Shown: in pieces, positions 50,525 to 58,290 of the stretch
Layout of the letters: every line of letters begins with the position of its first letter
How positions within the stretch are numbered: position 1 is the first letter of the stretch
NCBI GenBank assembly: GCA_035533015.1
Contig: DATLUQ010000018.1
Span: 1-64,000, forward strand
Origin: Gemmatimonadaceae bacterium
Lineage (GTDB): Bacteria > Gemmatimonadota > Gemmatimonadetes > Gemmatimonadales > Gemmatimonadaceae
DNA length: 64,000 nt
Direction of reading: 5' to 3'
Notes under the pieces: generated by a model
Databases searched by the model: none
Told to the model about the DNA's origin: nothing
The model's input: the letters and a program-made list of their open reading frames with translations, nothing else
Program-made: the position numbers and the translations under genes

Positions 50525-52201
50525 ATGCCGAACGCCACACCAACCAGTACTGCGCCCGGAGCACCGGCCACCGAACGGGCCCAATTGACGGCCCCACGGC
50601 ACGTGCTGGCCTTCGGTCCGGCCGCCGTCGCCCGCAGCACGCCGCGCATGTGGGCCATCCTCCGCGTTCTCCGGCGGCACGGCATTCTGGGCGCCGTCCG
50701 CGGCCGCCGGCACTGGCCCGACCCGGTGGCCGTCCGCACGGCGCTCGAGGAACTCGGCGTGGTGTTCCTCAAGTTCGGCCAGGTGCTCGCCGTGCGGCGC
50801 GACCTCTTGCCCGACGAGTACACCGGCGAACTGGAGCGGCTGCACGACGCCCTCTCGCCCATGCCGTTCGCCGACGTGGCGGCGGCGGTGGAGCACGACC
50901 TGGGAGGCCGGCTGCGCGACCACTTCGCGACGGTGGACGAGCGGCCCCTGGCGGCGGCGACCATCGCCCAGGTTCACCGCGCCACGCTGCCCGACGGGCG
51001 CGAGATCGTGCTCAAGGTGCGCCGCCCGGGGCTCGAGAGCCGCGTGGCCGAGGACGTGTCCATTCTCGCCTATCTCGCCGCGCTCGCCGAGCGCTACGTG
51101 CCGCGGCTGCAGACGTTCGACCTGGTGGGGCTTATTCAGGAATTCCGATACAGCCTGCAGCGCGAGCTGGACTTCCGTCTGGAAGCGCGCACCATCCGCC
51201 GTTTCCGCGATGCGTTGCGCGACGTGGACGGCGTGTGGACGCCGGACATCGTGCCGGCCTATTGCGGCCAGGGCGTGATCGCCATGGAATTCTTTCGCGG
51301 CGTGCGGGTGGACCGCTACGCCGAAACGCACCCCGAGGCGCGCGCCCACCTCGCGCGCACGATCGCTTCGCTGCTCCTCCATCAGATCTTCGAAGCCGGG
51401 CTCTTCCAGGCCGATCCGCATCCCGGGAACCTGGCCGTACTCGCCGACGGGCGCCTCTGCCTGCACGACTTCGGCATGGTGGGCGAACTCGACGCGGCCA
51501 TGCGCGACAGCCTCACGGCCCTGCTCGATGCCGTCGTGCGCGGCGACGTGCGCGACACGGCCGACGCGTATCTCGACGTCGGCCTCGTCGGGGCCGACGT
51601 CGACCGGCCGGCACTGGAAGCCGATCTCAGCACCCTCCTGCGCCGCATCCACGAGCAGGACCTGGCCGAGGTCTCGGTGGGCGACGCACTCCAGTCGCTA
51701 TTGCGCGTGGGCACGAACCACCGCATTCGCAATCCGGGCCCCATCCTGCTCCTCACGCGCGCCTTCCTGCTCGCCGAAGCCGTGATGCGCGATCTCGACC
51801 CATCGCTGAGCGTCGCCCAGGCCTTCCAGGACGAGTTGCGCCGGGTGGCCGTGCGGCGCTTCGCCCCCGCCCGGCTGATCGACGACGCGCGCCACGTGAG
51901 CCGGGACCTGGAACGGCTGCTCGGCACCGGGCCCGCCGACGTCCGGCGCACGCTGCGCCGGCTGGCCGACGGGGACCTGGGGCAGGTCCACATTCCGGCG
52001 TTGGAGCGCACCGAACGGCGCGCCACCCGCGGCATCGAGCGCCTGGCCGGCGCCGTGGCGTCGGCGGCGCTGCTCGTCTCGGGGAGCCTGCTGGTGGTGG
52101 CCGGCGGCTGGTACCGCTACGCCGGCGATCCGTTGCTCGTCATGGGCGCCGTCGGCACCGCCGTGGTCGGGCTCGGCGCGTGGCGGGCACGCGCCCGCTA
52201 G
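50525..52201 (+). CDS. ABC1/UbiB family atypical kinase
   Basis: The 558-residue protein has the UbiB signature: the KxGQ motif LKFGQVLAVRRDLLP, the alanine-rich loop AAATIAQVHRA, KVRRPG with the catalytic lysine, DFRLEARTI, QADPHPGN and DFGMVGE. Two hydrophobic helices end the protein (about 505-550). UbiB-like ATPases support coenzyme Q or other isoprenoid lipid metabolism. No quinone genes are adjacent. A GGGGGG run precedes the ATG. The TAG overlaps the convergent gene's stop (CTAG). Confidence 0.9.
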   Translation: MPNATPTSTAPGAPATERAQLTAPRHVLAFGPAAVARSTPRMWAILRVLRRHGILGAVRGRRHWPDPVAVRTALEELGVVFLKFGQVLAVRRDLLPDEYTGELERLHDALSPMPFADVAAAVEHDLGGRLRDHFATVDERPLAAATIAQVHRATLPDGREIVLKVRRPGLESRVAEDVSILAYLAALAERYVPRLQTFDLVGLIQEFRYSLQRELDFRLEARTIRRFRDALRDVDGVWTPDIVPAYCGQGVIAMEFFRGVRVDRYAETHPEARAHLARTIASLLLHQIFEAGLFQADPHPGNLAVLADGRLCLHDFGMVGELDAAMRDSLTALLDAVVRGDVRDTADAYLDVGLVGADVDRPALEADLSTLLRRIHEQDLAEVSVGDALQSLLRVGTNHRIRNPGPILLLTRAFLLAEAVMRDLDPSLSVAQAFQDELRRVAVRRFAPARLIDDARHVSRDLERLLGTGPADVRRTLRRLADGDLGQVHIPALERTERRATRGIERLAGAVASAALLVSGSLLVVAGGWYRYAGDPLLVMGAVGTAVVGLGAWRARAR

Positions 52202-52878
52202 CCGACCGACCGAGCAGCGCGTTCTGCGCGCGGGCCGAGCGGCAGATCGCGGAACCGCACCAGGTAGAGCACGGCGAGCAGCACCGCGGCCACCAGAACC
52301 GCCCACGAGCGCTGCTCCGGCGCGGTTTCGATCGTGACCGATACCACGTCCCCGGCCGCGAGCCCACCGACCGACAGCCGCACGGCCCGCCGATCGTCCG
52401 CCGTGTCGGGTGACATCGGCCACACCCCGGCGCGCCGGTCCGACGGCGGTATCGTGTAGCTCACGTTCCGCGCCAGCCGCCCCGGCGGCAGTTCGATGAC
52501 CAGATGGTACTCGTCGATCGTGGTGCCGGTGGCGTTGGCGAACCGGTACGCGAACACGTCGCCGAGCGCGCGCCCCGCGAACTCGGCGCGAATGCGAGCC
52601 GCGCCGCCGCCGGCCAACCGCACCAACAGCCGCGACACGGACGCGCCCGATTGGACCTCCGCCGACGCGCCGGGGGGCAGTTCCAGGCGAGTGGCGCCGC
52701 CGAGCGGCCACGCCACCGGGATCTCCACCACGCCCGCGTGGGCGCCGGCGACGACCACGTCCAACGCGATCGCCGCGCGGTCACCGGTGAGCACGATCCG
52801 TTCGCCGTACGACGTGATGGTATCGGCCGGCCCCGCCGCCTGGAGCAGCGCCGCCGCTACGAGCGCGGCCAGCATCAT
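52198..52878 (-). CDS. Membrane-anchored exported protein of unknown function
   Basis: The 226-residue protein has a signal peptide (MLAALVAAALLQAAG) and a beta-rich extracytoplasmic domain with many paired strands. It has one C-terminal membrane helix (WAVLVAAVLLAVLYLVRF) and a short basic tail. I do not recognise a family. The ATG at 52878 overlaps the transporter's stop (ATGATG/TGA), so it is coupled to the DASS gene and is the last gene of the CYTH-porin cluster. It may be an accessory protein for the transporter; this is guesswork. Confidence 0.7.
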   Translation of the reverse strand: MMLAALVAAALLQAAGPADTITSYGERIVLTGDRAAIALDVVVAGAHAGVVEIPVAWPLGGATRLELPPGASAEVQSGASVSRLLVRLAGGGAARIRAEFAGRALGDVFAYRFANATGTTIDEYHLVIELPPGRLARNVSYTIPPSDRRAGVWPMSPDTADDRRAVRLSVGGLAAGDVVSVTIETAPEQRSWAVLVAAVLLAVLYLVRFRDLPLGPRAERAARSVG

Positions 52879-54440
52879 ACGCGGGCCCCGAATGACGGCG
52901 TGAGCCCCAGCCAGTGGAAGTAGGTGGCCCCGGCGATCAGCAATAGCAGATAGCCGACGGTGCACACGGTGAGCCCGTAGCGAAGGTTGTCACGCGCCGA
53001 GTACTGGTTGGTGGCGTAGAGGATGACGTTGGGCTTGCCGCTGATCGGCAGCCCGATCACCCAGTCGATGGTGAACGCCGCGGGCAGCGCCAGGCTCGCC
53101 GGGTCCCAGCCCAGGCCGCGGGCCAGCAGGATGATCACGGGAATCATGATCACCGTGCGCACCGTCTTGGACGTGGAGAGGAGGTGGCTGTACAGCATCA
53201 CGGCGATGACGACGGCGTAGGTGTAGCCGAACGCCACGTGCTGGAGCCGGAGACCGCCGAAGATGCGCTGCACGGCCCATGCGGCGGCGCCGGTGCTGTC
53301 CAGGGCCAGTCCGCCGGCGTAGGCGCCGGCACTGAACACCATCAGATGCCAGGGAATGTCGGTGTCCTGCCACTCGAGCAGGCCGACGCGTGGCATGAGG
53401 GCGATGGCGGCGCCGACCATGGCCGAGATCGGGGCGCCGAGTTCGAGGCCGAACCAGCGCTGCTGGTACCGGTCGGTGGCCCAGAGAAAGATGACGAGGA
53501 AGAAGATGGCCAGGGCCCGCCATTCCCTGGCGCTGATCGGGCCCATCGCGGCCTTCTCGCGGGCCACGACGTCCAGTCCGCCGGCAATGACGGGCCGCCG
53601 CTCGGCGGGCGGGATGCGAAAGATCACGCGCGGCCCGAGCCACCAGGCGAAGAACACGGTGAGCACGGCCACCGGCGCCGAGGCGATCAGCCAGTCCGTG
53701 TAGTAGACCCGGTGCCCGCCCAGGCTCTGGACGAACCCCACCGCGAGGATGTTGGCGGCACTCCCCGTCATCACCGTCGATGACAGAATACTAATGCCCG
53801 TGAGGTTGAGCAGGAACAGGTTCCGCCCGAAATTCGTGGGATGCTCGGACGTCGAGCCGTAGATGGCGGCCACGGCGATCATCAGCGGGAGCGTGAGCGC
53901 GGCCCGCGCCGCCGTGGCCGGAATGAGCGGCGCCAGGGCAAGTTGCAGCACCACGAACGCCCCCAGCGCCCACGACGCCCGGGCGCCGAACCGGAGAATC
54001 AGGGTCAGCGCCAGCCGCTTGGCGAGCCGCGTCTTGACCAGCATGGCGCTGAGAATGAACGCCAGGATGTTGAGCCAGATGACGTCCAGCCCGAACACGC
54101 CCATGACATCGGTGGCCCCCCACCCGCGCAGGGTGACGAGCAGCAGCATCAGCACCAGCGACGTGAGATACGTGGGCACCGGCTCGGTCACCCACCAGAC
54201 CAGCGCGAGGGCGAACGCGGCCGCCGAGACCTGGCCCGCGGCGGTCAGCCCGGGGGGGGTCGGGGCATAGTAGAGCCACAGGAAGACGAGGATCCCCGCC
54301 GGAAATCCCAGGTAGCGCGCCCATCGGTCGAACGCGCCGGCGGGGGGGTGCTGCTTGGGCGACAGCGCGAACCGGTCGAGCGCCAGCAGGTGCGCCAACT
54401 CGGCGTCGCGCGCCGGGAGCGACAGGACGTCAGCCGGCAT
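52875..54440 (-). CDS. DASS/SLC13 family anion symporter
   Basis: The 521-residue membrane protein has about 11-12 helices. The DASS features are MTGSAANILAVGF in one half and the SGKPNVILYATNQYSARDNLRYG segment in the other, matching the two substrate-binding hairpin motifs. Members move dicarboxylates, sulfate or phosphate with sodium. The start at 54440 overlaps the CYTH gene by 11 bp. Its neighbours (porin of the phosphate-selective type, two CYTH-type proteins) suggest an inorganic or organic phosphate-like anion, by inference only. Confidence 0.85.
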   Translation of the reverse strand: MPADVLSLPARDAELAHLLALDRFALSPKQHPPAGAFDRWARYLGFPAGILVFLWLYYAPTPPGLTAAGQVSAAAFALALVWWVTEPVPTYLTSLVLMLLLVTLRGWGATDVMGVFGLDVIWLNILAFILSAMLVKTRLAKRLALTLILRFGARASWALGAFVVLQLALAPLIPATAARAALTLPLMIAVAAIYGSTSEHPTNFGRNLFLLNLTGISILSSTVMTGSAANILAVGFVQSLGGHRVYYTDWLIASAPVAVLTVFFAWWLGPRVIFRIPPAERRPVIAGGLDVVAREKAAMGPISAREWRALAIFFLVIFLWATDRYQQRWFGLELGAPISAMVGAAIALMPRVGLLEWQDTDIPWHLMVFSAGAYAGGLALDSTGAAAWAVQRIFGGLRLQHVAFGYTYAVVIAVMLYSHLLSTSKTVRTVIMIPVIILLARGLGWDPASLALPAAFTIDWVIGLPISGKPNVILYATNQYSARDNLRYGLTVCTVGYLLLLIAGATYFHWLGLTPSFGARV

Positions 54441-54909
54441 CGCGCCAGCGGGCGTAGGGGTGGCGCGTGAGATTCGAGTTGTAATATCGCGGGTCGGCCG
54501 ACACCTCGGCACCGGCCCACGGCGGGAGGGCCACCACGGCGCCGACCGCCGGGAGTTCCACTTCGGCAATGATCAGCCCCGCGTTCTCGCCCTCGAACAC
54601 GTCCACTTCCCACACCCGGCCTTCGAACGGCACCCGGTACCGCGTCTTCTCGATCAGCGGGCGCGCGCACAGACGGTCCAGCATCGCGTCGGCGTCGGCA
54701 ACGGGAATCGGGTACTCGAATTCGAGCCGCTCGATCCCCGTCGTCGCGCCCTTGATCGTCAGGAAACCCTGATCGCCCACGGTGCGGACGCGCACCACCC
54801 GGTCGGCGTCGGTGGACAGGTAGCCCTGCCGGTACCGTTTGCCCTGCGCCGGGTCGGCGCGCCACACGTCGTGCTTGACCAGGTACTTCCGTTCGATCTC
54901 GATGGCCAA
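54430..54909 (-). CDS. CYTH domain protein (triphosphate tunnel metalloenzyme)
   Basis: The 159-residue protein begins AIEIERKYLV, the ExExK signature of CYTH enzymes. It continues with RVRTVGDQGFLTIKG, KTRYRVPFEGRVWEVDVFEG and IIAEVELP, giving the alternating charged strands of the tunnel. It likely hydrolyses inorganic triphosphate or thiamine triphosphate using a divalent metal. The start is TTG at 54909, fixed by a GAGGG site and the motif position, seven bp after the porin stop. The length is close to bacterial YgiF-less CYTH proteins. Confidence 0.88.
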   Translation of the reverse strand: MAIEIERKYLVKHDVWRADPAQGKRYRQGYLSTDADRVVRVRTVGDQGFLTIKGATTGIERLEFEYPIPVADADAMLDRLCARPLIEKTRYRVPFEGRVWEVDVFEGENAGLIIAEVELPAVGAVVALPPWAGAEVSADPRYYNSNLTRHPYARWRDAG

Positions 54910-54916
54910 AGAACCC

Positions 54917-56176
54917 TCAGAGTGCCAGTCCGAACCGCATCTGCAAGATGTTGAACTTGTCGCCGGTGAGGAATGGCGCGACCCCAAGATCGGGCTTGGC
55001 ATACTGGTCGTTCACCACCCGCACGTAGTTCAACATCCACTTGAAGTTTGGATTGATGTACCAGGTGACGCCCAACGTGTAGTTGTTCGCCTTGCCGCCC
55101 GTGATGTTCACGCCGGGCGAGAAGTCGTTGAGGATCATCGTGCTGGCCCGCGCCGCCACCTCCCACGCCCCGCGATCGGACTTCGGGAAGATGCGGTCGA
55201 ACTCGCCCTCCTGCGGCAGGTACGGCCGACTCTCGCCGGTGATGAAGTAGCTCACGAAGGCGTACCCCCCGCCGAACCGCGCCGTGGCGAGCGCAGGATC
55301 GAGGCGGTGCACGTCCACGATCGTGTATTCGCTCTGCACCGACCACGGCCCGCGCACCGCCGCGAACTCGCCGTTGAAGTAGTTGGTATAGTCCACGTTC
55401 TTGATCTTGCCCGTGGTCAGGAACCGCACCTGGCTCACGTTGGTCTCGGGACGGGCCCGGAACCGCACCTGGTTGGCATCGGCGGGAAGACCGCCGTCGG
55501 GAGTGCGGCGGCTGGCGGACACGCCCAGGTGGACCAGGCTGCGGTCGGTGTGGATCGGGGCGATGGTGAACCGCCCGGTGAAGGCGTACCCCTCGGAATA
55601 CCCGGATTCGTCCACGTCACCGGCGGCCTGGCCGAACGCGCCGACCGACGCCTGCCAGTTGGACCCCCAGCGCGACACGCCCACGCCGATGTGCCGGTCG
55701 GGCGAGAAGTTGTCGGCGTACGACCGCTCCATGAACGTGATGTACTTGGACGAGGTCAGCGTCTCGAGACTGAACGGTTCCTTGTAGTTGCCCACCCGGA
55801 TCAGCGTGTTGGCGAACCCCTGATACCCGAGCCACATGTCCTTCATCTCGACGGCATTGCCCGCGAAGTCGACGTCGAATTCGCCCAGCCAGTCCTTGTA
55901 CAGGGTGGTCTTGACGCCGAGCCGGGCCCGGCGGACTTCCGAGCCGTTGGCCAGATGGTTCTTCTGCCCGTCGTACACCGCGCCGTCCACCTGGATGCGC
56001 CCGTCGAGCCAGTACTTGAACGCGCTGTCCGGGGTCTGGAACACCAGATACCCCCCGTCGTAGGCGCCGGGGAGCGGGATCGGGGCGCCGCCCGTCTGCG
56101 CGCCCACGGGTACGGCGACGGCCGTCGCCGCAGCCACGCCGGTCGTCAATATGAGTTTGCGAATAGTTCCTAGCAT
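54917..56176 (-). CDS. OprP/OprO-family (phosphate-selective type) outer-membrane porin
   Basis: The 419-residue protein has a signal peptide (ILTTGVAAATAVAVPVGA) and the Porin_O_P pattern: YWLDGRIQVDGAVYDG, EVRRARLGVKTTLYKDWLGEFDVDF, DMWLGYQGFANTLIRVGNYKEPF, MERSYADNFSPDRHIG, and a final strand INPNFKWMLNYVRV to FGLAL. OprP transports phosphate and OprO polyphosphate in Pseudomonas. A perfect AAGGAGGT site lies before the ATG, so it is probably strongly expressed. The start overlaps the upstream CYTH-like gene by seven bases. Confidence 0.88.
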   Translation of the reverse strand: MLGTIRKLILTTGVAAATAVAVPVGAQTGGAPIPLPGAYDGGYLVFQTPDSAFKYWLDGRIQVDGAVYDGQKNHLANGSEVRRARLGVKTTLYKDWLGEFDVDFAGNAVEMKDMWLGYQGFANTLIRVGNYKEPFSLETLTSSKYITFMERSYADNFSPDRHIGVGVSRWGSNWQASVGAFGQAAGDVDESGYSEGYAFTGRFTIAPIHTDRSLVHLGVSASRRTPDGGLPADANQVRFRARPETNVSQVRFLTTGKIKNVDYTNYFNGEFAAVRGPWSVQSEYTIVDVHRLDPALATARFGGGYAFVSYFITGESRPYLPQEGEFDRIFPKSDRGAWEVAARASTMILNDFSPGVNITGGKANNYTLGVTWYINPNFKWMLNYVRVVNDQYAKPDLGVAPFLTGDKFNILQMRFGLAL

Positions 56177-56844
56177 CGCACCTCCTTGGGGGGGACGGAG
56201 GAATGATCGGGGAGCCCGAGAATGCGCTTGAGCGCCCTCGGATAATTCTCATTGGCCGCCGGATCGAGTTTCAGCTCCCGGAGCGCCGCCAGCACGCGCG
56301 CCGGATCGGCGTCCTCGAACGACACGGTGTTCCAGCGATGGCCGGCCACCGTGATCTGCCCTCGTTCCCCGTGGCACCCGGCCACCGTCACCGGAATCCG
56401 CCGCTTGGCCATCGTGACGATCCGCAACTGCCGGTGCGGCACGACGACCGTCTGCAGCAGTTCGGCCAGGGAACGAATCGGCCTCCCGTCAGCAGGCGCC
56501 GGAAGGCCCCACGCCTCGCACGCCGCCGTCAGCGCATCCACCCCGATCGGGAATGGCCGCTTGAGCAGCGGGCACCACTGCTCCAGCCCGGACGCATCGG
56601 CCCGCACAAGTCGCTTGATCTCGAGTTGCCCATCGCGGATCTTCACGTTGTGGGGCGAGAGCAGCGAGAGGAGATACGTCTCCTCCCGCTCCCCGGCGAC
56701 CTGGGACCCCGTGGCACCCTCCACGGGCGGCGGCGCGGCGAACGTCCGTTCGAAGGCGCGCCACTCCCACCGGGGGACGACCGTGGCGCCGACCACGGCC
56801 GGGCCCGGTACTACCGTGTCGCTGGTCCTTTCCATCGTGGCCAC
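56170..56844 (-). CDS. CYTH/VTC-like domain protein
   Basis: The 224-residue protein shows charged strands suggestive of a CYTH-like tunnel: EWRAFERTF, NVKIRDGQLEIKRLV, WCPLLKRPFPI, MAKRRIPVTVAG, and NTVSFEDADPARVLAALREL. It is diverged from the standard family and could act on polyphosphate chains as VTC-type or CYTH enzymes do. I start at the GTG at 56844 with AGGAG seven bases upstream; ATG at 56835 and GTG at 56919 are alternatives. It leads the porin-CYTH-DASS gene run. The assignment rests on motif reading only. Confidence 0.6.
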   Translation of the reverse strand: MATMERTSDTVVPGPAVVGATVVPRWEWRAFERTFAAPPPVEGATGSQVAGEREETYLLSLLSPHNVKIRDGQLEIKRLVRADASGLEQWCPLLKRPFPIGVDALTAACEAWGLPAPADGRPIRSLAELLQTVVVPHRQLRIVTMAKRRIPVTVAGCHGERGQITVAGHRWNTVSFEDADPARVLAALRELKLDPAANENYPRALKRILGLPDHSSVPPKEVRC

Positions 56845-56988
56845 GCGCTCGCTCCTCGGATCGTTCGAGAAACGTTCGCGTACCCGGGCCACCTCCCCTA
56901 TCGGGCAAACCTCCAGCACCGGTCAGGCAAACGCACGGGTTTCGACGGCTTTTCTCCGACGCACCCCGGCACTACGCCCGCCCAGCGA

Positions 56989-58290
56989 TCAGATTCGCCC
57001 ACCCAGCCAGAAACCGAGCACCACGGCCCCGGCCAGCATGGCGAATCCGGGCGCTACCGCCCGCCGGAACTTCGACGACCCGAGCCCCATCGCCACCCCG
57101 AACTTGAGCACCGTGTTGGCGAGAATCCCGATCGTGATGCCCTGCGCAGCAAGCACCGAGGACGTGCCGTTGGCGACCGACCGGCACATGGACACGGTGA
57201 GTGCGTCCACGTCGGTGAGCCCGAGTACCGCGGCCGACGTCAGCACCCCTGCCGACCCCCACAACTCCCGCGCGAGCGAGAGCAGCATCATCGCAAGCTG
57301 GAACGCTACCGCCAACTGGATGGCCGACCACAGTTTGAGCGGGCTCTGCGTCTCGGGCTCGGTCGCCTCCGACGCCGCCGGCCACGGGCGTCGCAGCGCA
57401 ATCGCCACGAGGCCTGCGCCCACCACCGCCGACGGCAACAGGTACACGAGCAGCTGCCGCGCCACGTCGGCATTGAGCACCGCCGCCGCAGTCACCACCC
57501 GCGCCACGAGCACGGTGCACGCCCCCATCACGCCCAGCGCGAGCGGCCCGCTCAGCCCCTCGTCCCGTCGGCTCAGCCTCGAGAATTGCAGCGTCACCGC
57601 CGTCGACGACACCAGCCCGCCGAGCATGCCCATGATGCCGTAGCCGCGCCTCGCGCCCACCGCGTGCCGCGCGATGTGCCCGGCAAAGTTGAGCCCGGAG
57701 AACAGCAGCACGATCGCCCAGAGCGTGCGCGGGCGGATGCCGCCCAACGGACCGTACGGACCCGGCGGCAGCATCGGCAACACGACGAGCGCGAGCACGG
57801 CGAACTGCAGGGCGGCCCGCATCTCGCGCTCGCCGATCTTGCCCACCAGCCAGTGCAGCCGCTCCTTCTCACCGAGCGCGAGCACCACCACGGCCACGGC
57901 CCCCGCAGCGAGCCCCATCTCGCCGACGCCGGCAAGGACGGCGAGCGCCAGCACCACCAACGCCGCGGCCTCCGTGGTGCCGTCGAGATCGGCATCGGGC
58001 CGCCGCACCGCCATCGCGTACGCCACGGCCGCGAACCCCACCCCAGCGCCCAGCAGCACGCCGCCCGCCACCGCGTAACCCCACGTGAACAGCAGGCCGG
58101 CCGCGCCGCCCAGGAGCCCGAGCAGGAAAAAGGTGCGCATGCCGGCAAAGCGCCCCCGGGGCCCGGACGCGTGACCGGACCATTCGCGCTCCGTCCCTAC
58201 GGCCAGCCCGATCAGTGCGGCGAGACTCAACCGCATGGCCGCATCGAGCACGGAACCGTCAATCGCGAGCACTGCGGCGAGCGCCGTCAT
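56989..58290 (-). CDS. MgtC/DUF4010 family membrane protein
   Basis: The 433-residue protein has about 12 helices. The N-terminal half carries an MgtC/SapB-like segment (LSLAALIGLAVGTERE, GMRTFFLLGLLGG) and the rest matches DUF4010, with GGLVSSTAVTLQFSRLS and VDALTVSMCRSVANG. The function is not established; MgtC relatives affect magnesium, phosphate or ATP-synthase control. It lies upstream of the CYTH-like gene on the same strand with a gap of about 144 bp, so a shared transcript is possible but not shown. Confidence 0.85.
   Translation of the reverse strand: MTALAAVLAIDGSVLDAAMRLSLAALIGLAVGTEREWSGHASGPRGRFAGMRTFFLLGLLGGAAGLLFTWGYAVAGGVLLGAGVGFAAVAYAMAVRRPDADLDGTTEAAALVVLALAVLAGVGEMGLAAGAVAVVVLALGEKERLHWLVGKIGEREMRAALQFAVLALVVLPMLPPGPYGPLGGIRPRTLWAIVLLFSGLNFAGHIARHAVGARRGYGIMGMLGGLVSSTAVTLQFSRLSRRDEGLSGPLALGVMGACTVLVARVVTAAAVLNADVARQLLVYLLPSAVVGAGLVAIALRRPWPAASEATEPETQSPLKLWSAIQLAVAFQLAMMLLSLARELWGSAGVLTSAAVLGLTDVDALTVSMCRSVANGTSSVLAAQGITIGILANTVLKFGVAMGLGSSKFRRAVAPGFAMLAGAVVLGFWLGGRI

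Follow-up and report, generated by a model that had tools for sequence, protein, structure and literature searches.

Within a 64,000-nucleotide stretch of DNA from a Gemmatimonadaceae bacterium (assembly GCA_035533015.1, contig DATLUQ010000018.1, positions 1 to 64,000; we call the whole stretch the window), a tight run of minus-strand genes encodes an orphan protein, P1; a porin of the OprP/OprO kind; a triphosphatase of the CYTH, or TTM, type; and an anion transporter of the DASS family. We think it plausible, and stop short of calling it probable, that these proteins make up a module with which the cell acquires short inorganic phosphate chains (tri- or pyrophosphate, or short polyphosphate) and cuts them. 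The features are these:

56170–56844, minus strand: P1, 224 amino acids, orphan family, predicted cytosolic; GTG start uncertain, with an in-frame GTG also at 56919.
56180–56187, minus strand: AAGGAGGT, ribosome-binding site of the porin, 3 nucleotides ahead of its ATG and within the 3' end of P1.
54917–56176, minus strand: OprP/OprO-type porin (Porin_O_P) with signal peptide; PF07396, 2.1e-66; overlaps P1 by 7 nucleotides.
54430–54909, minus strand: CYTH/TTM inorganic triphosphatase, NeuTTM type, predicted cytosolic; PF01928, 4.7e-17; TTG start; 7-nucleotide gap after the porin.
52875–54440, minus strand: DASS-family inner-membrane anion transporter with an exchanger-like signature; PF00939 (Na_sulph_symp), 3.9e-63; 11-nucleotide overlap.
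52198–52878, minus strand: fifth protein, secreted, C-terminally membrane-anchored; translationally coupled through a 4-nucleotide overlap; no family.
56989–58290, minus strand: neighboring MgtC/DUF4010 membrane protein; PF13194, 5.5e-47; PF02308, 4.8e-14.

An earlier, sequence-only reading of this DNA described five overlapping or touching minus-strand genes and a perfect AAGGAGGT site at the porin. All five open reading frames are indeed intact, every junction is either an overlap or a gap of 7 nucleotides, and the site is present at 56187–56180.

In the scheme that we favor, the porin would pass anions through the outer membrane, as its homology and its retained phosphate-site residues suggest. 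Passage over the inner membrane would fall to the DASS protein, probably an exchanger that does not depend on sodium, and might run against outgoing inorganic phosphate (Pi). The CYTH enzyme would then cleave tripolyphosphate to pyrophosphate (PPi) and Pi in the cytosol, and P1—here we are guessing—would assist as an accessory protein that binds or guides the chain. Where a PiT transporter and a DUF47 protein are attached, as they are in some copies, these would recover the Pi. The sequence-only reading had likewise proposed uptake of polyphosphate or triphosphate, with cleavage placed between outer-membrane entry and inner-membrane transport. The uptake system gains ground from the conserved gene set and from several links to phosphate (a Ppx/GppA fusion, the OprP-site residues, PiT and DUF47), but the order of steps does not stand: neither CYTH nor P1 has a signal peptide, so cleavage would be cytosolic and would follow transport.

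The genes keep constant company. Of 395 genomes sampled from the phylum, seven have the DASS subtype (threshold E <= 1e-60), and in every one of the seven its neighbors include the same CYTH, the same porin type and P1. Such an arrangement is far beyond chance; it is not an accident. Copies of the module fall in three families, with two DASS subtypes and differing gene orders. Genome G056 has the order of the window plus one insertion, a small gene for a YgaP-like membrane protein. The order in G054, G305 and G329 is porin–lipoprotein–P1–CYTH–DASS–DUF47–PiT, in which the DUF47 protein is PhoU-like and PiT is a phosphate transporter (Pfam); that in G311 and G139 is porin–lipoprotein–CYTH–DASS–DUF47-like–P1–SulP. 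Gene order, on which the sequence-only reading had staked itself, is therefore conserved in related genomes: in G056, and as variants with DUF47 and PiT in G054, G305 and G329.

Strong occurrences of P1 number 12 in the 395 genomes, 10 of them with CYTH; weak matches in G233 (L110) and G260 (L112) have no module genes nearby. The CYTH subtype (over 130 bits) occurs 25 times in the phylum, many times alone. CYTH matches under 92 bits are mostly reading frames of about 500 amino acids, probably CHAD fusions, and were left out of the module counts. The DASS protein of the window is 72% identical to that of G056, which belongs to another family, and about 40% identical to those of G139 and G311, which belong to its own. 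Because its nearer relative lies in the other family, transfer or an old duplication is likely.

Beyond the phylum, a mobilizable plasmid of Citrobacter freundii from a human isolate (NZ_CP026058.1, L147 7097–12616) carries the genes in the order LysR–CYTH–P1–DASS. Its CYTH and the window's share 57% identity; its DASS has 43% identity with the G054 protein, and the two share an S-K-T-x-R signature. No porin gene is attached to this cluster, which occurs a single time among 72,556 plasmids compared at the DNA level and has no match in E. coli genomes; its P1 has no match in phages, and searches of the viral and phage collections returned no relative. In Cupriavidus sp. P-10, pMTS1 encodes P1 fused to a Ppx/GppA exopolyphosphatase domain (L148 8986–10479; 8.5e-47), preceded by a weakly CYTH-like gene (L148 8231–8938; E 0.017, below the cut-off). 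The CYTH–P1–DASS core recurs across phyla, and is apparently transferable. Downstream of the Citrobacter cluster lies a gene for a 486-amino-acid protein without family. A further match from the contig scan, L008 on an Acetobacteraceae contig, was a false positive, the matched stretch not being its own coding frame.

Assignment of the porin to the OprP/OprO type holds. It matches Porin_O_P; a profile built from all seven module porins finds OprP (2O4V) at 1e-31 and OprO at 2e-26; and a signal peptide is present, judged from the hydrophobic N-terminus only. PMC5877670 lists eight residues at the central phosphate site of OprP. Five are kept—R34, S124, S125, K126 and R133 correspond to R60, S142, S143, K144 and R151 of the window porin—and three are replaced: Y62 by R, K121 by T and D94 by K. 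The triad [ST]-S-[KR] (OprP 124–126) is found in 7/7 module porins and in 0/13 Porin_O_P relatives of the phylum that lie outside the module, and R34 in 7/7 versus 3/13. R62 and K114 are common to most of the porins compared, and are uninformative on the module.

The call of a CYTH enzyme with an ExExK motif holds too. The domain scores 62.8 bits against a curated Pfam cut-off of 23.2, and the best match in the PDB is the TTM protein of N. europaea, NeuTTM (2FBL/3TYP; 6e-18), a specific tripolyphosphatase (PMC3440374). ExExK takes the form E-I-E-R-K and is invariant across 11 CYTH sequences. All 11 also keep Y30, R40, R42, K53, R61, E63, E65, K88, R90, E101, D103, E116 and E118, which comprise the catalytic dyad, the tunnel Arg, Lys and Glu residues, and the metal-site glutamates (PMC3440374, PMC4641920). 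That the enzyme would split tripolyphosphate to PPi and Pi is well supported by its homology to NeuTTM. Inspection of its N-terminus reveals neither a signal peptide nor a membrane segment, and it is therefore expected to act in the cytosol.

P1 is harder to place. The sequence-only reading saw in it a CYTH/VTC-like protein, a likeness of motif that is backed by no family match, no significant profile match and no usable model, and that we take as tentative. P1 has no match in Pfam, NCBIfam or the PDB, where searches by sequence and by profile return chance matches only, and none of 14 P1 members matches CYTH in Pfam. Profile–profile alignment of P1 with CYTH recovers a KxRxR patch only, and the hhalign result (P about 0.03, with 2 of 60 column-shuffled decoys scoring higher) is not significant. 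Single-sequence AlphaFold models of the whole protein and of its core, at predicted local distance difference test (pLDDT) values of 41 and 44, are unusable. By eye, and in a low-threshold hhalign path, the order of motifs is nonetheless collinear with that of CYTH (EWR, ETY, VKIR…LEIK, KxR). Relatives of P1 share, with exceptions, P-R-[WFA]-E-x-R-x-F, [ED]-x-Y, [VT]-[KR]-[IV]-R, [DE]-[IV]-K, F-P, K-x-R and N-x-N-Y. If the by-eye alignment is right, the site-1 metal Glu is absent from the P1 copies of G003, G232 and G163; and if P1 is CYTH-like, this absence from several members suggests a binding role rather than a catalytic one. Its N-terminus, on inspection, has no signal peptide and no membrane segment.

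Our guess is that P1 plays an accessory part alongside polyphosphate enzymes, binding or guiding the chain as CHAD does, or else that it is a divergent and possibly inactive CYTH. CHAD domains are polyphosphate-binding partners of TTM enzymes (PMC6537752), and P1 likewise is encoded on its own next to a TTM gene or else occurs in fusion with a polyphosphate enzyme. The two differ in that no sequence relation between them was detected, and P1 may act like CHAD without being kin to it.

The transporter had been called a DASS anion symporter. The family stands (4e-63; the score against the DASS subfamily model TIGR00785, 179.8 bits, is under its cut-off of 198.6), but 'symporter' is doubtful, since neither SNT motif is retained and exchanger-type positions hold basic residues. 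In Na+-coupled DASS cotransporters, two SNT motifs form the substrate and Na+ sites; in the exchangers, basic residues stand in for the two Na+ ions (R159 and H392 in LaINDY, with H401 nearby; PMC7553777). The corresponding motifs are A-T-A and S-K-T in the window protein, and S-A-T and S-K-T in the other module subtype. With LaINDY numbering inferred from alignment, R179 of the window protein takes the place of Arg159 (the Na1 surrogate), H419 that of His392, and R428 that of His401. In the other subtype these three residues are K, A and R; LaINDY-type basic residues at both Na+ positions are fully present only in the window/G056 type. The nearest solved structures are those of the exchanger LaINDY and the plant protein DiT1. 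To judge from these residues, the transporter is probably sodium-independent, charge-compensated and exchanger-like. Its signature is S424-K425-T426-x-R428, in which K425 and R428 are invariant, and we would speculate that the extra lysine, K425, could suit a more highly charged anion. A related DASS protein with the signature S-K-T-x-K adjoins a histidine phosphatase gene on a plasmid, pmk2 of Klebsiella sp. (L149 5920–8056).

Several things weigh against a module for phosphate chains. The DASS proteins known so far transport di- or tricarboxylates or sulfate, and we know of no bacterial member that carries polyphosphate. The functional links between the proteins are all ones of association. 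Membership of Porin_O_P is by itself no proof of phosphate selectivity (PMC5877670). A scan for Pho boxes found none upstream of any module copy; sigma-54-like sites with one mismatch lie upstream of three copies (shuffle p 0.02–0.04), before the porin in L108 and L109. And the genus mates G001–G003, with the same MgtC gene upstream, have P1 and CYTH only, without porin or DASS, so the pair is useful by itself.

The main alternative is that these genes serve the homeostasis of Pi and organic anions. DASS would exchange dicarboxylate or Pi, CYTH and P1 would do no more than clear internal tripolyphosphate (PPPi) as a form of metabolite repair, and the operon would group genes needed when phosphate status changes, with no oligophosphate crossing the inner membrane. 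This has a real if minority chance of being correct. It sits well with the solved relatives nearest to DASS, LaINDY and DiT1, being dicarboxylate exchangers, with the clean-up role proposed for tripolyphosphatase in the case of NeuTTM (PMC3440374), with the solitary enzyme pair of G001–G003, and with the attachment of DUF47 and PiT in three genomes. What it leaves unexplained is why this DASS subtype is never found apart from CYTH and P1, and why a lysine, K425, has been added to the second substrate motif.

Uptake of sulfate or another oxyanion (selenite, arsenate or phosphite), with CYTH incidental, strikes us as improbable. The G311 and G139 copies speak for it, and so also count against a phosphate-chain role: a SulP sulfate-type permease adjoins P1 in both (L108 10047–12263, L109 6953–9100), sulfate carriers exist in both DASS and SulP, and a PhnD-like phosphonate/phosphate-binding protein, a histidine kinase and a sigma-54 response regulator stand at the head of these operons (L108 22–3739, L109 15434–19001). 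One Porin_O_P member has, moreover, been linked to selenite and tellurite (PMC5877670). Set against this are the three copies that include PiT and DUF47, the fusion to Ppx, the triphosphatase in every copy and the phosphate-site residues retained in a porin of the phosphate type; it is because of these that we favor a role with phosphate or phosphate chains. In the L108 copy, SulP carries STAS and cyclic-nucleotide-binding domains (Pfam), a possible nucleotide control of an anion permease.

Very improbable, finally, is the joining by chance of two unrelated units, a P1–CYTH enzyme pair and a porin–DASS transport pair, for although P1–CYTH occurs without the transporter in the window's genus, and the G003 porin is down to a 3' remnant of 34 codons between P1 and CYTH (L009 9395–9496; 59% identity, 3e-7) from which we infer that the transporter part was lost there, the same joining in three families, with two DASS subtypes and differing orders, together with the CYTH–P1–DASS of Citrobacter, would need either repeated independent joining or selection for linkage.

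The acquisition and cutting of short phosphate chains thus remains our preferred account, and the evidence of conservation and fusion supports a phosphate or short-polyphosphate role better than did the reasoning of the sequence-only reading. A bolder version of it is doubtful: that tripolyphosphate or short polyphosphate would enter intact, crossing the outer membrane by the OprP-like porin and the inner one by a DASS antiporter that needs no sodium and trades oligophosphate for Pi, and would then be cleaved in the cytosol by CYTH with the help of P1, a new polyphosphate-handling family, the whole being cross-phylum and transferable.

Other genes nearby deserve brief mention. The fifth gene, counted by the sequence-only reading as a coupled, membrane-anchored member of the cluster, is both of these things but finds no support as part of the system: its protein has no family match in Pfam or NCBIfam, and tblastn against the other clusters finds no relative of it in any other copy. 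The MgtC/DUF4010 gene recurs in two other lineages (L012 3908–5149 and L107 10173–11453); it lies beside P1 in the window's genus and in G163, and beside DASS in G056. In the B-type copies, a lipoprotein with a weak match to the Reelin subrepeat always follows the porin (L013 10182–10823, L103, L104, L108, L109). At another place in the genome to which the window belongs, the genes for PPK1 and a second PiT are adjacent (G000:C50 5307–7310), which fits our preferred account.

The sequence-only reading knew of no described system with this set of genes, and we found none with porin, CYTH, DASS and P1 in the open-access papers searched, subscription papers lying outside that set. New to us are the combination, its cross-phylum recurrence, and P1; the other parts belong to known families. 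P1 gains a context from its neighbors, which are TTM genes in two phyla, and from the Cupriavidus protein in which it is joined to an exopolyphosphatase domain. Should the DASS protein move oligophosphates, these would be a new substrate class for SLC13-type transporters, the protein would be, to our knowledge, the first bacterial inner-membrane oligophosphate transporter, and the module would offer a way to draw phosphorus from the condensed phosphates of soil and water. What specific tripolyphosphatases of the NeuTTM type do in vivo in bacteria is an open question, and the existence of PPPi in cells is debated (PMC3440374); with one of them coupled to a porin and an inner-membrane transporter in a conserved operon, that role can be put directly to the test.

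How, then, does the module compare with what is known? Like NeuTTM, its CYTH stands alone without CHAD, has ExExK, and keeps the dyad, Y28/K52 there and Y30/K53 here (PMC3440374); unlike NeuTTM, it shares an operon with P1, porin and DASS. The window porin shares the Porin_O_P family and five of eight phosphate-site residues with OprP and OprO of Pseudomonas aeruginosa, and differs from them at Y62, K121 and D94; B-type module porins have, in addition, an extra N-terminal domain. We know of no OprP or OprO gene of Pseudomonas that adjoins CYTH. Like LaINDY and DiT1, the DASS proteins are basic at the Na1-surrogate position (R179 or K here, R159 in LaINDY); they differ in the invariant extra lysine (S-K-T rather than S-N-T or S-G-T), and only the window/G056 type retains the Na2-site histidine. 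A more distant parallel comes from the yeast vacuole, whose Pho91 is placed in a DASS-related group. There, too, a TTM-fold enzyme, VTC4, works with a Pi transporter (Pho91 is a Pi exporter; PMC12668673), but in a eukaryotic organelle, under SPX control, and as a polymerase instead of a hydrolase, so that the parallel is one of function only.

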